A DNA stretch of 64,000 nucleotides from Dyella sp. S184 (GTDB lineage: Bacteria; Pseudomonadota; Gammaproteobacteria; Xanthomonadales; Rhodanobacteraceae). The translations under genes and the position numbers were made by a program. The notes beneath the pieces are model-generated. The model was not told the DNA's origin. It saw nothing but the letters and a program-made list of their open reading frames with translations, and did not search any database. Location: NCBI RefSeq assembly GCF_009766065.1, contig NZ_LMUE01000002.1:972347-1036346 (forward strand). The letters run 5' to 3'. Below are positions 59,106 to 64,000 of the stretch, in pieces; the first letter of the stretch is position 1; every line of letters begins with the position of its first letter.

Positions 59106-60170
59106 ATGACCGACCACTCTTGTGGCAAGCAAAAGGTTGATTACGCCACCTTGCGCCTGCCTGCGGAATGGGAACCGCAGGCCGCGGTATTGATTGCCTG
59201 GCCGCATGCCGATACCGACTGGGCCGAGCGCCTGGCCGCGGTGGAAACCACCTATGTGGCACTGGCAGCAGCAGTAACGCGCTTCCAGCCGCTGATCATC
59301 GTGGTGGCTGACGCCGCCCTGCAGGCTCACGTCGAGGCCCAGCTGCATCGTGCCAAAGTCGATCTCGCCCGCATCCGCTTCGTCGAACTGCCGTATGACG
59401 ACACTTGGCTGCGTGATTCCGGCCCGATCACCCTGAAAGCTGGGGATGCTGGATTCCAACTCACCGACTTTCGCTTCACCGGCTGGGGCGGCAAGTTCGG
59501 TGCCGAGCAGGACGATGCGCTGATCGGCGGACTGGTCGACGCCGGTGTATTTGGCCATGCCGCGCACAAGCGCATCGACTGGGCGCTGGAGGGCGGCGGC
59601 ATCGAGAGCGATGGCGCGGGCACCGTACTCACCACCTGGCGCTGCCTGCTGCAGCGTCACCCTGAGCAGTCGCGCGAGGAGATGAGCGCGATCCTGCGTG
59701 ACAGCCTGCATGCCACGCGCGTGCTGTGGCTGGATTACGGCTATCTCGAAGGCGACGACACCGACGCGCATATCGATACCCTGGCGCGCTTCGCGCCGGG
59801 CGAGCGCATCGTGTTCCAGGCCTGCGACGACAGCAGCGACCCGCATCACGACGAGTTGCAGCGGATGGGCGCCGAACTGGCCGCCTTGCGCACCGTCGAT
59901 GACCGCCCGTATCAGCTCTACCCATTGCCGTGGGCGAAGCCCATTCTCGACGAAGGTCGCCGCCTCGCCGCTTCTTACGCGAACTACCTGATCGTCAACG
60001 GCGCCGTGCTGGTACCGGCCTATGACGACCCGGCCGACGACGAGGCCGCACGCATCATCGGGACGGCGCATCCTGGCCGCGAGATCGTGCAGGTGCCCTG
60101 CCGCCCGCTGATCTGGCAGAACGGCAGCCTGCACTGCATCACCATGCAGTTGCCGGCCGGTCTGGCCTGA
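59106..60170 (+). CDS. aguA: AguA, agmatine deiminase
   Basis: A 354-residue enzyme that converts agmatine to N-carbamoylputrescine. Conserved blocks are RLPAEWEPQAAVLIAWPHADTDW, YDDTWLRDSGP, GDDTDAHIDTLARF with the catalytic His, and NGSLHCIT near the end with the nucleophile C344. The residues before RLPAEW (TDHSCGKQKVDYATL) are not usual for AguA and are encoded by a 32-bp sequence that recurs upstream. A TTG at 59151 would exclude that stretch. It is followed by aguB 66 bp downstream. Confidence 0.93.
   Translation: MTDHSCGKQKVDYATLRLPAEWEPQAAVLIAWPHADTDWAERLAAVETTYVALAAAVTRFQPLIIVVADAALQAHVEAQLHRAKVDLARIRFVELPYDDTWLRDSGPITLKAGDAGFQLTDFRFTGWGGKFGAEQDDALIGGLVDAGVFGHAAHKRIDWALEGGGIESDGAGTVLTTWRCLLQRHPEQSREEMSAILRDSLHATRVLWLDYGYLEGDDTDAHIDTLARFAPGERIVFQACDDSSDPHHDELQRMGAELAALRTVDDRPYQLYPLPWAKPILDEGRRLAASYANYLIVNGAVLVPAYDDPADDEAARIIGTAHPGREIVQVPCRPLIWQNGSLHCITMQLPAGLA
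59120..59151 (+). repeat. 32-bp near-repeat, copy B (within aguA)
   Basis: This segment at the start of aguA matches the minus strand of 58525-58556 at 28 of 32 positions. It begins TTGTGGCAAGCAAAA and contains GTGGC and GCCAC arms. It encodes the atypical CGKQKVDYAT of AguA. Confidence 0.8.
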
Positions 60171-60236
60171 GTTTTGTCGGCATCCGCTAAACTCCGCGGG
60201 TTGCCAGTACGAACAGTCAAGTCAGGATCGAAGCCG

Positions 60237-61127
60237 ATGACCCGCAAGACCCTCAAGGTCGCCCTGCTGCAGGAAACCGACCGCGGCAGCCGCGATGCCA
60301 ACCTAGACGCGATCGAGGCCGGCCTGCGTGAAGCCGCTGCGGCTGGCATCGAGCTGGTGTTGCTGCAGGAGCTGCACAACGGCCCGTATTTCTGCCAGCA
60401 CGAATCGGTCGAGATCTTCGATCAGGCCGAGACGATCCCTGGCCCCGGTACCGCGCGCATCGGCAAGCTGGCCGAAGAGCTGAAGCTGGTGGTGGTCGCC
60501 TCGCTGTTCGAGAAGCGCGCCACCGGGCTGTATCACAACACCGCCGTGGTATTCGATCGTTCGGCCGCGATCGCCGGCAAGTACCGCAAGATGCACATCC
60601 CGGACGATCCGGCGTTCTACGAGAAGTTCTATTTCACGCCGGGCGATCTCGGTTTCGAGCCGATCGATACTTCGGTCGGCCGGCTCGGCGTGCTGGTGTG
60701 CTGGGATCAGTGGTATCCGGAAGCCGCCCGCCTGATGGCGCTGGCTGGCGCCGAACTGCTGCTTTACCCCACTGCGATCGGCTGGGACCCGAACGATGTG
60801 CAGGCCGAGAAGGATCGCCAGCGCGATGCGTGGATCACCGTGCAACGTGGCCACGCGGTAGCCAACGGCCTGCCGCTGCTGTCGTGTAACCGCACTGGCT
60901 ACGAGGCGGATCCCTCCGGTGTGGGTTCCGGCATCCAGTTCTGGGGTTCCAGCTTTGTCGCCGGCCCGCAGGGCGAGTTCCTCGCACAAGCCGGTACCGA
61001 CGGGCGTGAGCTGCTGCTGGTCGAGGTCGATCTGGCGCGCAGCGAGCACGTGCGGCGGATCTGGCCGTTCCTGCGCGATCGCCGCATCGATGCCTATGCC
61101 GACCTGCTCCGGCGTTTTCGTGACTGA
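60237..61127 (+). CDS. aguB: AguB, N-carbamoylputrescine amidase
   Basis: A 296-residue nitrilase-family enzyme that hydrolyses N-carbamoylputrescine to putrescine, completing the agmatine route with AguA. The catalytic triad is E45 (LLQELHNGPYFC), K118 (YRKMHIPDD) and C155 (VLVCWDQWYPEAAR). The ATG at 60237 gives MTRKTLKVALLQ, the standard start; the open frame begins earlier at 60174, just after the aguA stop. Confidence 0.95.
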   Translation: MTRKTLKVALLQETDRGSRDANLDAIEAGLREAAAAGIELVLLQELHNGPYFCQHESVEIFDQAETIPGPGTARIGKLAEELKLVVVASLFEKRATGLYHNTAVVFDRSAAIAGKYRKMHIPDDPAFYEKFYFTPGDLGFEPIDTSVGRLGVLVCWDQWYPEAARLMALAGAELLLYPTAIGWDPNDVQAEKDRQRDAWITVQRGHAVANGLPLLSCNRTGYEADPSGVGSGIQFWGSSFVAGPQGEFLAQAGTDGRELLLVEVDLARSEHVRRIWPFLRDRRIDAYADLLRRFRD

Positions 61128-61216
61128 AACCGCGCTAGCGCACACTTGCGCAACTTGTTCCGCATGGCCGTCGTCCCCATGCTTGGATTTCCCCTTGAGA
61201 CCGGCCTGCTGATCGC

Positions 61217-62449
61217 ATGAGTGTTCCCGAAACCGACCTTGCCCTGTTGCCTGCCTTGCAAGGCCAGCCGATCGAGCGCGTGCAGCGTGACGGCGTGGAA
61301 TACGTGGTGCTGGGTACTGCGCATGTCTCGCGCAGCAGCGTGGACGCGGTCGAGGCGCTGCTGGCGCATGAGCATTTCGATGCCGTGGCGATCGAGTTGT
61401 GCGACAGCCGCGCGCAGAGCATGCGCGATCCGGAAGCGTTCAAGCAGATGGACCTGTTCAAGGTGATCCGCCAGGGCAAGGCCGGCATGGTCGCCGCCAG
61501 CCTGGTGCTGTCGACGTTCCAAAAGCGCCTGGCCGATCAGTCCGGTATTCAGCCCGGCGCCGAGATGAAGGCAGCGATGGATGGCGCCGAACAGCGTGGC
61601 CTGCCGGTCTGGCTGATCGACCGCGAGGTCGGCACCACGCTCAAGCGCGCCTGGCACAGCGTCGGCTTCTGGCAGCGCTTCGGCCTGCTCGGTGGCCTGC
61701 TCGCCAGCGTGTTCGAGCGCGAGGAAATCGAACAGGGCGAGATCGAAAAGCTGAAACAAGGCGATCTATTGGAAAGTGCCTTCAGCGAATTCGCCAGCGA
61801 ATCGAAACCACTTTTTCAAAGCCTGATCAGCGAGCGCGATGCGTTCATGGCCGCACGCCTGCGCGAGGAATCGGCACGCTCGGCGACAGCCGAACCACGC
61901 CGCGTGCTGGTGGTTATCGGCGCTGGCCACTTGAAAGGCCTGAGCGGACTGCTGCGCGACCAGCACGACGATCCCGCCATCACCGTCGCCAAGCTGGCCG
62001 CCACACCGCCCAAGGCACGCTGGCCGAAATGGCTGGCTGTCGCGCTGGTGCTGCTGGTGTTTGCGGCAATTGCCTACGCATTCCACCGCAATGCTGCGCT
62101 GGGCACACAGGCATTGCTTTCATGGGTGCTGTTCACCGGCGGCTTTGCCGCGCTCGGCGCGGTGGCCGCTGGCGGTCACCCACTCAGCATCCTCGCCGCC
62201 TTCATCGCCGCACCGATCAAACCGTTCCGCCCCGGCATCCCCGCCGGCGGCATCAGCGCGATGGCCGAAGCCTGGGTGCGCCACCCGCGTGTGGTCGACT
62301 TCGACACCTTGCGCGACGACATCGTGCACTGGAGCGGCTGGTGGAAGAACCGCGTCGCGCGCACCCTGCTCAACTTCTTCCTGGTCAGCATCGGCACCAT
62401 CATCGGCGAGTACAGCGCCGGCATCCACATCTTCAAGAGCCTGATGTAA
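61217..62449 (+). CDS. TraB/PrgY-family membrane protein
   Basis: A 410-residue protein. The N-terminal soluble domain (about 25-275) has the TraB signatures VVLGTAHVSRSSVDAV, AIELCDSRAQSM and VLVVIGAGHLKGL. The C-terminal part has about four hydrophobic segments (WLAVALVLLVFAAIAYAF, ALLSWVLFTGGFAALGAVAAGG and others). Relatives in enterococci limit pheromone activity, and some are proposed metalloproteases; its role here is unknown. It lies before the tRNA gene. Confidence 0.85.
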   Translation: MSVPETDLALLPALQGQPIERVQRDGVEYVVLGTAHVSRSSVDAVEALLAHEHFDAVAIELCDSRAQSMRDPEAFKQMDLFKVIRQGKAGMVAASLVLSTFQKRLADQSGIQPGAEMKAAMDGAEQRGLPVWLIDREVGTTLKRAWHSVGFWQRFGLLGGLLASVFEREEIEQGEIEKLKQGDLLESAFSEFASESKPLFQSLISERDAFMAARLREESARSATAEPRRVLVVIGAGHLKGLSGLLRDQHDDPAITVAKLAATPPKARWPKWLAVALVLLVFAAIAYAFHRNAALGTQALLSWVLFTGGFAALGAVAAGGHPLSILAAFIAAPIKPFRPGIPAGGISAMAEAWVRHPRVVDFDTLRDDIVHWSGWWKNRVARTLLNFFLVSIGTIIGEYSAGIHIFKSLM

Positions 62450-62552
62450 TCCAAACGAGACACTGAGCCGACAAGGGTGCACATGTTACGATTCGCGCCG
62501 TCTCAAGCCCGACTTACGCGGGCGAACATCGGCTCGGCAACGAGTCAAACCA

Positions 62553-62870
62553 GCCCGAGTGGTGAAACTGGTAGACACAAGGGACTTAAAACAATTTGAG
62601 CCCTCCGGGGGAAACCCCAGAGGTGACACCCGTCAAATTCGGTGAAAGCCCTGGATGCCGCAAGCATTCGAGCCAATGCCGAGCCAAGCCTCCGATCCAA
62701 AGTCTGAGGAAGGTGTAGAGAGCAGACGGCGGGCACCTACGGCTTTCAAAGCTACGGTGAAGGCGTGCTCCAGACCACGAACAGCGTTCGCGCTGGCGGC
62801 GAAAGCCGAAGTGGGAAGAAAATCCCTCGACCTCACGGTCATGCCGGTTCGATTCCGGCCTCGGGCACCA
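62553..62870 (+). tRNA. tRNA-Leu (UAA), interrupted by a group I intron
   Basis: The 5' exon is 62553-62587 and the 3' exon 62819-62870. The acceptor stem GCCCGAG (62553-62559) pairs with CTCGGGC (62860-62866), followed by A and an encoded CCA. The D arm, a class II long variable arm (GACC/GGTC) and T arm (GCCGG-TTCGATT-CCGGC) are all present. The anticodon stem AGGGA/TCCCT spans the splice junction. The spliced anticodon is UAA, with the intron between U34 and A35, so it decodes UUA and UUG. Confidence 0.97.
62588..62818 (+). ncRNA. Group I self-splicing intron in tRNA-Leu(UAA)
   Basis: A 231-nt intron of the small tRNA-associated (IC3-like) type. P1 forms between the 5' exon GGGACTT and GAGCCC at 62598-62603, with the conserved U.G pair at the splice site. 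P2 (62602-62622) is capped by a GAAA tetraloop. Core segments are TCAAATTCGGTGAAA (62633-62647), GAGCCAAGCC (62681-62690) and GGTGTAGAGA (62712-62721). P7 pairs GAGCA (62720-62724) with TGCTC (62766-62770). P9 is enclosed by CCAC/GTGG and includes a GGC-GAAA-GCC hairpin. The intron ends in G62818, as group I introns do. No homing-endonuclease gene is present; open frames across it are shadows. Confidence 0.95.
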
Positions 62871-62876
62871 TTCAGG

Positions 62877-62903
62877 ACCGCTCCTTACCGGGGCGGTTTT
62901 TTT
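62877..62903 (+). terminator. Intrinsic terminator after tRNA-Leu
   Basis: ACCGCTCC (62877-62884) and GGGGCGGT (62890-62897) form an 8-bp stem with one G.U pair and are followed by seven T at 62897-62903. It starts 7 bases after the CCA end, so the tRNA is probably transcribed alone. Confidence 0.9.
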
Positions 62904-62994
62904 ATGAGTCCGCGAGGACGATCTCGCATCCTCTTGATGCAAATCAAACGCGCACATCGCCAAGTCAGCCGCGTGCGAGGTCACTAGCCTCGTC

Positions 62995-63012
62995 AGAAGT
63001 GCATGCACTTCT
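62995..63012. repeat. 18-bp perfect palindrome
   Basis: AGAAGTGCATGCACTTCT is fully self-complementary. It lies in the 185-bp gap between the tRNA terminator and the EF-hand gene. It has no T run, so a terminator is unlikely; a protein-binding site or part of a transcript end is possible. Confidence 0.6.
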
Positions 63013-63088
63013 GCTGCCCGCGGCAACCCAGATTGGCCGCAGTAGCAACGACTTTGCCTGCTCCAGCCAAAGTCACATCACCCAAACA

Positions 63089-63538
63089 TCATGGGTGTTC
63101 GTGCTTCAGCATGTAGTTGACCACGTTCACGTATTCCTTGAAGTCCAGACACTGGTTCTTCTCCGTATCGAACATCGCCATCGGTGGCGCGGACTTGCCG
63201 GCGTGCTGGATCAGTTCCAGGTGGGCGTACTCCGCCGCGTTCAGGCAACCGTTCTTGTCGGTGTCCATCGCCACGAATTGTTCGTGCAGGCGATGCAGCT
63301 CGGCCGTGGCCTGCAGCTGATGCCAACCGACCCGGAACTCCTGAGGCGACAGCACCCCGTTGTGGTCGGTATCCCAACGGGCAAAGATCGCATCCGCTTC
63401 ATCGGCCGGCGCTGCCGGGGTGGCCTGGGTGGCGGGTGTCTTTGCCGGGGTTGTCGCTTGGGCCTGCGCCGCGGTCGCCACGAGTAATGCCGCGATCACA
63501 CACACGGCATAGCCTGCCCTACTCCCGTGCATCGTCAT
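63089..63538 (-). CDS. Exported EF-hand calcium-binding protein
   Basis: A 149-residue protein with a signal peptide (VCVIAALLVATAAQAQA), a Thr/Pro/Ala linker, and three EF-hand loops: DTDHNGVLSPQE, DTDKNGCLNAAE and DTEKNQCLDFKE. The first two have complete Ca2+ ligand positions; the third has Gln in place of the usual Gly. The ATG at 63538 overlaps the stop of the upstream TIGR03032-type gene by 4 bp, so they are co-transcribed. Confidence 0.88.
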   Translation of the reverse strand: MTMHGSRAGYAVCVIAALLVATAAQAQATTPAKTPATQATPAAPADEADAIFARWDTDHNGVLSPQEFRVGWHQLQATAELHRLHEQFVAMDTDKNGCLNAAEYAHLELIQHAGKSAPPMAMFDTEKNQCLDFKEYVNVVNYMLKHEHP

Positions 63539-64000
63539 GGCGTCACGCCCTCCGCCTGCAGCTCCGTCTCAAACGTGATCAGCTCGCGGATCTCCGGTGT
63601 GCGCAGGCCCACCATCATCGGGTTGCGCACATTCGGCAGGAAGCACAGGTCGAAGATCTCGGTAATGTCGCCCTCGAAACGGATCCAGTGCAGCACATCG
63701 CCATTGGTCAGCGAGATGATCTGCACACCGCACCAGGGCTCGACATCGTGCTGGGTCAGTTCGGCATCCAGCTGCAGACCTTCGAAACGCTGGTTCCTCG
63801 GCTTGGACAAACCCACCGCCGCCGTATTGCCGAAGATCGACAGGCCGCGCACGAACCCGGGCAGGAACGTGTGCGGTACAAACGACTTGGTCGTGAAGTC
63901 CACCCAGCCCAGATGACCGGTACCGGCATTCAATACCCACAGCTTGCCGTTCGCCCAGCGCGGTGAATGCGGCATCGACAGGCCTTCGCAGACGATCTCG
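63535..64000 (-). CDS. TIGR03032-type protein, C-terminal part (partial)
   Basis: A frame open to the right edge of the window, so the N-terminus is missing; about 154 residues are visible. The stretch GLSMPHSPRWANGKLWVLNAGTGHLGWVD, then LPGFVRGLSIFGNTAAVGLSKPR, fits the TIGR03032 (DUF4915-like) family of beta-propeller-like proteins of unknown function. An internal ATG at 63975 is not the start because the conserved region continues upstream of it. It overlaps the EF-hand gene by 4 bp. Confidence 0.85.
   Translation of the reverse strand, partial: EIVCEGLSMPHSPRWANGKLWVLNAGTGHLGWVDFTTKSFVPHTFLPGFVRGLSIFGNTAAVGLSKPRNQRFEGLQLDAELTQHDVEPWCGVQIISLTNGDVLHWIRFEGDITEIFDLCFLPNVRNPMMVGLRTPEIRELITFETELQAEGVTP

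Follow-up and report, generated by a model that had tools for sequence, protein, structure and literature searches.

Group I introns in the tRNA-Leu(UAA) genes of cyanobacteria and plastids have been described as inherited or transferred, and a 231-nt intron of this gene was reportedly found in a Pseudomonas isolate by Vepritskiy et al. in 2002 (J Bacteriol). The intron considered here lies in the same gene, at the same site between U34 and A35, and like them it is small and free of open reading frames. To our knowledge, none of the cyanobacterial, plastid or Pseudomonas introns has been linked to a broken native tRNA gene or to an integrase. The Azoarcus tRNA-Ile(CAU) intron presumably resembles, in its core sequence and in its site after U36, the introns of the tRNA-Ile elements described below. 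Tycheposons, as the elements described below, are integrative elements linked to tRNA genes; we know of no group I intron in them.

The table of a published review gives cyanobacteria, alpha- and betaproteobacteria as bearers of group I introns in tRNA genes (PMC4033280). The islands collected in Islander restore tRNA genes via attP fragments, many of them anticodon-centred, and use a tyrosine integrase (PMC4383910). Such islands and ICEs have in common with our elements the tyrosine integrase, the crossover in the anticodon loop and a tRNA fragment marking one end, but in the former the attP tRNA fragment restores the target, whereas here the core is about 9 bp and there is a separate, complete, intron-split replacement tRNA gene; the term "intron" does not occur in the main text of the Islander paper (PMC4383910). 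A review on archaea cites Sugahara 2012 for the proposal of intron-bearing attP sites, with integrating elements moving tRNA introns (PMC8371274). The transfer of tRNA introns by elements is proposed there as it is here; however, as summarized in that review, archaeal introns are exchanged by att recombination, whereas here a group I intron resides in a second full gene and not in the att site. In Pseudomonas, an island in a tRNA-Leu gene has been described (PMC2647930). Among the matches listed in our literature search, with most subscription papers outside its scope, none connects tRNA-borne group I introns with integrative elements. A tRNA-Leu intron in a gammaproteobacterium is not new in itself; what looks new is the integrative-element context.

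The window, that is, the whole analysed stretch of 64,000 nucleotides from Dyella sp. S184, contains the following features of interest.

61217..62449, + strand: gene of the TraB/GumN family, host gene and left-hand neighbour of tRNA-Leu(UAA) in the compared loci of the genus (PF01963 homologues; left-flank synteny)
62450..62503, + strand: host flank following the TraB/GumN-family gene and presumably serving as promoter region of the native tRNA (conserved with relatives)
62504..62552, + strand: remnant of element spacer (attL-internal DNA), 49 bp, directly upstream of the tRNA gene (aligns with the spacer end of G019, G021 and G035)
62553..62587, + strand: 5' exon of tRNA-Leu(UAA), last nucleotide U34 (ARAGORN with introns, tRNA-Leu(taa) i(36,231); sequence)
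62588..62818, + strand: group I intron of 231 nt ending in G, with no room for a homing-endonuclease gene (RF00028, E 3.1e-7; covariation in 35 introns)
62595..62600, + strand: internal guide UUUGAG, pairing with CUU of the 5' exon and the first intron nucleotides AAA (P1, U.G at the splice site; sequence reading and splice-junction survey)
62819..62870, + strand: 3' exon of tRNA-Leu(UAA), CCA encoded (ARAGORN with introns; sequence)
62874..62900, + strand: hairpin with a U-run behind it, which likely terminates the tRNA cassette (-16.4 kcal/mol, z -3.44, 40-nt fold)

When introns are disallowed, ARAGORN finds no tRNA in the window; with introns allowed, it yields a tRNA-Leu(taa) with a 231-nt intron after nucleotide 35. 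The preliminary description, a class II tRNA-Leu(UAA) gene at 62553..62870 with a 231-nt insert between U34 and A35, is exact to the base. The acceptor stem is GCCCGAG/CTCGGGC. The covariance-model check agrees with the assignment of the insert to group I introns: cmscan matches Intron_gpI (RF00028) at positions 62578-62773 of the plus strand over the full model (1-253), with E 3.1e-7 and 37.7 bits, although this is below the Rfam gathering score of 50. RF00028 is the sole Rfam match in 60000-64000 at E up to 0.1, and the window intron is the sole group I intron match genome-wide at E 0.001. P1 (CUU^AAA with UUUGAG) with the U.G pair at the splice site, the GGGGGAAACCCC P2 and the terminal G, all noted before, are readable in the sequence. 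RNAalifold, applied to 35 non-redundant Leu(UAA) introns out of 54 candidates and that of the window, produced 71 pairs, with 94.8% of cells paired and 35 pairs changed on both sides; the structure is derived from the same alignment it scores and is pseudoknot-free, P3/P7 being outside it. Such pairing and double changes in these 35 introns are more than chance. The RNA of the window intron is predicted to self-splice. Hairpins similar to the putative terminator are seen by eye 3' of several other intron tRNA genes.

Another intact tRNA-Leu(UAA) gene elsewhere, which the preliminary description named, together with RNA data lacking a spliced product, as an argument against it, was searched for in the genome and none was found: the native 87-nt gene, used as a query, matches just the two exons of the window. 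While the intron was rightly placed in the tRNA-Leu(UAA) of a gammaproteobacterium, the suggestion that none had been described in its lineage is not borne out, given the Pseudomonas report mentioned above and the close relatives found here. Intron tRNAs are present in eight of the 45 genomes of the genus, where nine loci form a patchy pattern, and in 16 of 299 genomes evenly sampled from the order, representing 15 of 85 genera, with one match partial.

The reading that we favour, with a probability of roughly 0.83, is that the window contains the sole tRNA-Leu(UAA) gene found in its genome, and that this gene is likely a captured remnant of an integrative element that breaks the anticodon loop of its target and carries an intron-split replacement tRNA. 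The evidence comes from the relatives. In six of the nine genus loci, a truncated host tRNA of the same isoacceptor lies just upstream of the intron tRNA, cut right after the anticodon loop (UAA in G019, G020, G021 and G029, CAA in G027 and in one locus of G043). By eye, the host tRNA is degraded in two more, G035 and the other G043 locus, and in the window it is gone. In none of the searched genomes with a broken UAA gene was an intact intronless tRNA-Leu(UAA) found: the intact tRNA matches in G053, G055 and G056 are CAA genes. G027, where the CAA gene is broken, retains an intact UAA gene. In G021, the host 3' half is situated about 13.9 kb downstream and adjoins a tyrosine integrase with Arm-DNA-bind_3, SAM-like and catalytic domains, and the corresponding empty site is provided by the sister genome G036, which has an uninterrupted tRNA gene with both flanks of the G021 element. 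In G043, the right end of the UAA element is degraded and lies at the boundary of the native tRNA. A CRISPR-Cas I-F set adjoins the intron tRNA of G035, an element whose right end was not found. In G001 (locus L032), a 9.5-kb element occupies the same tRNA-Leu(UAA) gene in the classical way, with a restored intronless tRNA and a distal 3' half; its integrase is just about 25% identical to the integrase of the intron-tRNA elements.

Thirteen elements, about 8.6 to 84.5 kb in length, are complete on one contig.

Leu(UAA), five elements: G021, G054 (Pseudomonas jinjuensis), G057 (Stutzerimonas stutzeri KOS6), G058 (Lysobacter concretionis), G126
Leu(CAA), three elements: G027, G043 (Rhodanobacter thiooxydans LCS2), G176
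Ile(CAU), five elements: G045, G047, G048, G050, G062

In G020 and G318 the element ends are on two contigs. In all 13 complete elements the target isoacceptor is also the cargo isoacceptor, and it is in these 13 relatives, not in the window, that the interrupted host tRNA is seen with both halves and the core repeat. The crossover core is 9 bp long, CTTAAAATC for Leu(UAA); in the single-contig genome G126 it occurs exactly twice in 45.5 kb, at both ends of the element. The 3' halves begin at native position 33 in the four listed, and the 5' halves end at positions 39-45 in ten, in five of them at 41. As the att sites share just about 9 bp with the host, integration breaks the tRNA gene: in the relatives the host tRNA is left in two dead pieces, its 5' half marking one end of the element and its 3' half the opposite end. 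Just inside the left end, the same isoacceptor is encoded by a further, intact gene whose core is split by a group I intron. Hence the intron tRNA is the replacement gene of integrative elements that break tRNA-Leu(UAA), tRNA-Leu(CAA) or tRNA-Ile(CAU). Classical restoration, that is, an intact tRNA formed by a 3' fragment of the element and the host 5' half, was not encountered in these elements, where the host halves run into non-tRNA spacer.

The host 5' and 3' halves of the Leu elements belong together. Counting Watson-Crick plus G-U pairs, their acceptor strands form 7+0 pairs in G054, G058, G057, G126 and G176, 6+1 in G043 and G027, and 6+0 in G021, versus just 4-5 plus 0-2 pairs between the host 5' half and the 3' end of the intron tRNA, although in G021 the test does not discriminate once G-U pairs are counted. 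Of the Ile elements, G045 and G050 do not pass the simple 7-nt test, owing to decay or an indel, and in G062 and G048 all combinations pair alike.

In each of the eight complete Leu elements, an inward-pointing tyrosine integrase gene adjoins the host 3' half. The UAA integrases, where compared, are 83-93% identical to each other; the CAA integrases of G027 and G043 are 87% identical mutually and 67-69% identical to the UAA ones (G176, 62%). The Ile elements G045, G046 and G050 have in common a short Phage_integrase protein near the left end. G048 is the sole complete Ile element with an integrase match beside the 3' half, a weak one below the Pfam cut-off, and scans of 6 proteins of G047 and 10 of G062 gave no integrase. 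The cargo is diverse. G058 is an ICE, the only element for which conjugation genes are shown, with a Trb-type set: TrbI, CagX, a TrbE-like protein and a T4SS coupling protein among ten proteins scanned. G021 carries Fic and RelE domains and a TonB receptor, G058 and G054 efflux components, G062 a type I restriction set and AbiEii, and G047 a DNA methylase, an SNF2 helicase and RadC. The G062 locus (L286 752-16440, Polynucleobacter) has, besides its one intron tRNA-Ile, a further copy of the 3' part of that gene as well as two 3' halves of host-like sequence, and looks like a stack of two elements; the presence of two intron tRNAs there was considered and rejected, as ARAGORN supports one.

At the window locus, host DNA extends to about 62503 and is followed by the element spacer, as seen in the alignment with relatives. 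The protein of the neighbouring TraB-family gene is 97% identical to one named Rhodanobacter, and its PF01963 homologues are named TraB, several of them from Rhodanobacter. The native truncated half and most of the spacer seen in G019, G021 and G035 are missing from the locus. No host 3' half was found within about 77 kb downstream of the window tRNA, and no close homologue of the element integrase is present in the window genome at E 1e-90; other Phage_integrase matches in this genome number 17. A search through the native flanks for the right end of the element that had occupied the window locus did not find it, and one flank query seemingly matched an ordinary chromosomal gene. With neither the integrase nor both element ends at the locus, the window copy is likely a relic, a captured remnant of an integrative element and not an intact one. 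The element would have decayed or moved away and the host half would have been lost, the intron tRNA taking over, and the cell would now depend on an intron-bearing tRNA-Leu(UAA). At the end of the window, a 177-bp stretch inside a DUF4915 gene is tandemly repeated with 98% identity (63824-64000 and beyond; L039 3171-3535).

The scan with an intron-core pattern gave at least 119 loci in genome contigs and at least 120 in viral contigs. Among the matches listed, ARAGORN recognizes an intron-bearing tRNA in 111 genome-contig and 95 viral-contig loci, 107 and 89 of which, respectively, have at least 300 bp available upstream. A 5' fragment of the same tRNA type lies upstream in 25 of these 111 genome-contig loci; in 23 of the 25 it is cut at the anticodon loop and lies 119-448 bp (median 168) from the intron tRNA. 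In two of these 23, the isoacceptor names given by ARAGORN, Phe and Ser, look mistaken for Leu and Ile. Such a fragment is found in none of the 95 viral intron tRNAs among the matches listed, and in the downstream control none of 206 (again among the matches listed) reaches the threshold of 28, the highest control score being 27. As most loci were found through the intron, intron-free replacement tRNAs would be missed.

The two remaining genome-contig fragments differ from the rest. In L149 (Enterovibrio) and L143 (Psychromonas), an intron tRNA-Arg(UCU) is preceded, about 100 bp upstream, by a host-like fragment of the same type of tRNA, which breaks in the T arm and not in the anticodon loop; the reading of these upstream sequences as intact Arg tRNAs was dropped for this reason. 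The two loci perhaps represent another mode of integration that brings along a replacement gene of the same kind. Locus L371, the only one with the core letters that we take to be those of Azoarcus, has no host half within 1.2 kb upstream, and its intron tRNA is either resident or captured.

In the IMG/VR contigs, the intron tRNAs (95 of 120 matches listed; L166-L285) are mostly Leu(UAA), with Lys, Thr, Phe, Ser, Gln and others also present, and many of them reside in tRNA arrays. A review of 2014, in its statement on phages, places the phage introns then known in protein-coding genes (PMC3984707), which these viral contigs with intron tRNAs do not bear out. Among plasmids, 1277 records, mostly from Escherichia and Klebsiella, match an intron tRNA, 1275 of them at 60-80% identity; the one match inspected (L358) lies between IS6 transposases near aac(3)-IId and is perhaps a trace of the chromosomal origin of the resistance gene.

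The position of the intron relative to the crossover core suggests what it may do for the element. In three isoacceptors it lies inside the core, after U34 or C34 in the Leu genes and after U36 in the Ile genes. Among the matches listed, viral ones too, all 113 Leu(UAA) and all 24 Ile(CAU) intron genes with canonical junctions lack the core in their DNA and regain it when the exons are joined; given the intron position, this is true by construction. An uninterrupted rescue gene would hold a direct repeat of the element's own core at a distance of about 200 bp. Since the intron separates the arms of the crossover site in DNA and not in RNA, the integrase would be unable to act on the replacement copy, and, judging from sequence, the split 9-bp core likely makes the replacement no target for the element's own integrase. 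The precursor would self-splice, and the mature tRNA would rescue the decoding of UUA, as suggested by the intact cloverleaf and the conservation of the intron.

This may be generalized, tentatively and at somewhat less than an even chance, to the proposal that proteobacterial tRNA group I introns are shields: a self-splicing intron would erase the crossover site in DNA and restore it in RNA, thus letting one element enter hosts with different tRNAs without killing them or recombining with itself. Such shields would have arisen in three isoacceptors, Leu(UAA), Leu(CAA) and Ile(CAU), and the tRNA introns found scattered as residents among beta- and gammaproteobacteria, that of Azoarcus perhaps being one of them, would be captured leftovers. 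The Arg(UCU) loci count against such generality: with the break in the T arm, an intron in the anticodon loop would shield nothing there.

The same loci are among the arguments for the alternative that survives best, in which the element and the broken host tRNA are real, whereas the intron is a mere passenger from an intron-bearing lineage, neither protective nor selected. We take it as a serious contender, albeit one that we would bet against. It is consistent with the fact that the protective activity is deduced from sequence, and that at the 5' junction of the window gene CTTAAAA reads through, so that seven of the nine core bases persist. Against it stand the position of the intron within the crossover core in three isoacceptors and the two direct copies of the core, about 200 bp apart, that an uninterrupted replacement would create. 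Moreover, in the splice-junction survey ten of the 14 Leu(CAA) introns hold the site even though the splice pair becomes C-G. The tRNA-Leu(CAA) genes with C-G in place of U.G are L009, L034, L084, L086, L091, L108, L163, L164, L333, L334 and L337, L034 being outside the ten of 14.

Another explanation is that the intron is simply a resident one of group I, passed on by vertical descent or spread through homing or reverse splicing, and functionally unconnected with the elements. It would account for the 86 of 111 genome-contig intron tRNAs (among the matches listed) that have no upstream fragment at the threshold, several of which sit in a native Gly-Cys cluster, and for the window, where no host half remains. 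Nevertheless, we consider it improbable, as it fits poorly with the patchy occurrence in the genus and with the host genes broken or degraded alongside the intron tRNA in most genus loci. Besides, the near-identity between hosts spans the spacer, the tRNA and the downstream DNA, and not the intron alone. In a comparison of 11 loci across genera, Ottowia, a betaproteobacterium, and Lysobacter concretionis, a gammaproteobacterium, are 99% identical in the spacer, 98% in the intron tRNA and 95% downstream, versus 80% in the native half and 61% in the upstream flank; between Variovorax CAN15 and Hydrogenophaga, identity is 100% from the spacer through the intron tRNA to 150 bp beyond it, versus 89% in the native half and 61% in the flank.

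The intron tree points in the same direction, with a reservation. It is a quick tree of 103 out of 229 introns with weak inner support, restricted to canonical Leu and Ile junctions and lengths of 180-262 nt, with the viral UAA introns thinned to 16. The isoacceptor and source labels need seven changes on this tree, the least possible number being four and the shuffled mean 45, but the beta/gamma label, assigned by hand, needs nine among 46 UAA introns. Deep vertical inheritance of copies with a broken host gene was dropped because of the patchy presence and the cross-class near-identity of the element-borne part. The preliminary description had posed a choice between deep ancestry and transfer into the same site; for proteobacterial copies adjoining a broken host gene it is transfer that stands, not as the homing of a bare intron, since the whole tRNA gene moves on integrative elements.

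The association with the integrase was assessed from both sides. Among the 299 genomes of the order, the integrase is found in seven, the intron tRNA in 16 and both in four (Fisher p 1.8e-4), and the three genomes with a clear host half are three of these four. Sampling the order by the integrase first gave just three tRNA-Leu cases, all three with an intron tRNA, one of them with ends on different contigs; two further loci on viral contigs end too early to tell. Integrase homologues at about 62-71% identity form two groups: G176 ends in tRNA-Leu(CAA), whereas a tRNA-Leu half beside the homologue was seen neither in the five of L384-L386, L389 and L388 (the last one broken) nor in 17 of the 19 on viral contigs. 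The class-wide search yielded the integrase in three of 369 genomes, none with a tRNA-Leu half beside it. In a betaproteobacterial order, 11 of the 399 genomes sampled match the Ile intron tRNA, and five of these 11, the query genome included, have a half.

Finally, an origin of the truncated 5' halves by tandem duplication and decay of the intron tRNA, and not by integration, is hardly credible and was dropped because distal 3' halves and an empty site were found, the matching 3' half lying 8.6-84.5 kb away in 13 elements; although the halves are close upstream in the same orientation, they resemble native tRNAs, and 23 of 25 (among the matches listed) end near the end of the anticodon loop.

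Replacement tRNA genes of integrative elements provide the tRNA introns of proteobacteria with a vehicle and probably explain why these introns sit in the anticodon loop. For islands that target tRNA genes, this would be a second way to spare the host, by a replacement gene that needs splicing instead of an attP fragment. If true, the element would be freed from matching the acceptor stem of its host, which fits its passage between bacterial classes, and the host would depend on a ribozyme for an essential tRNA.
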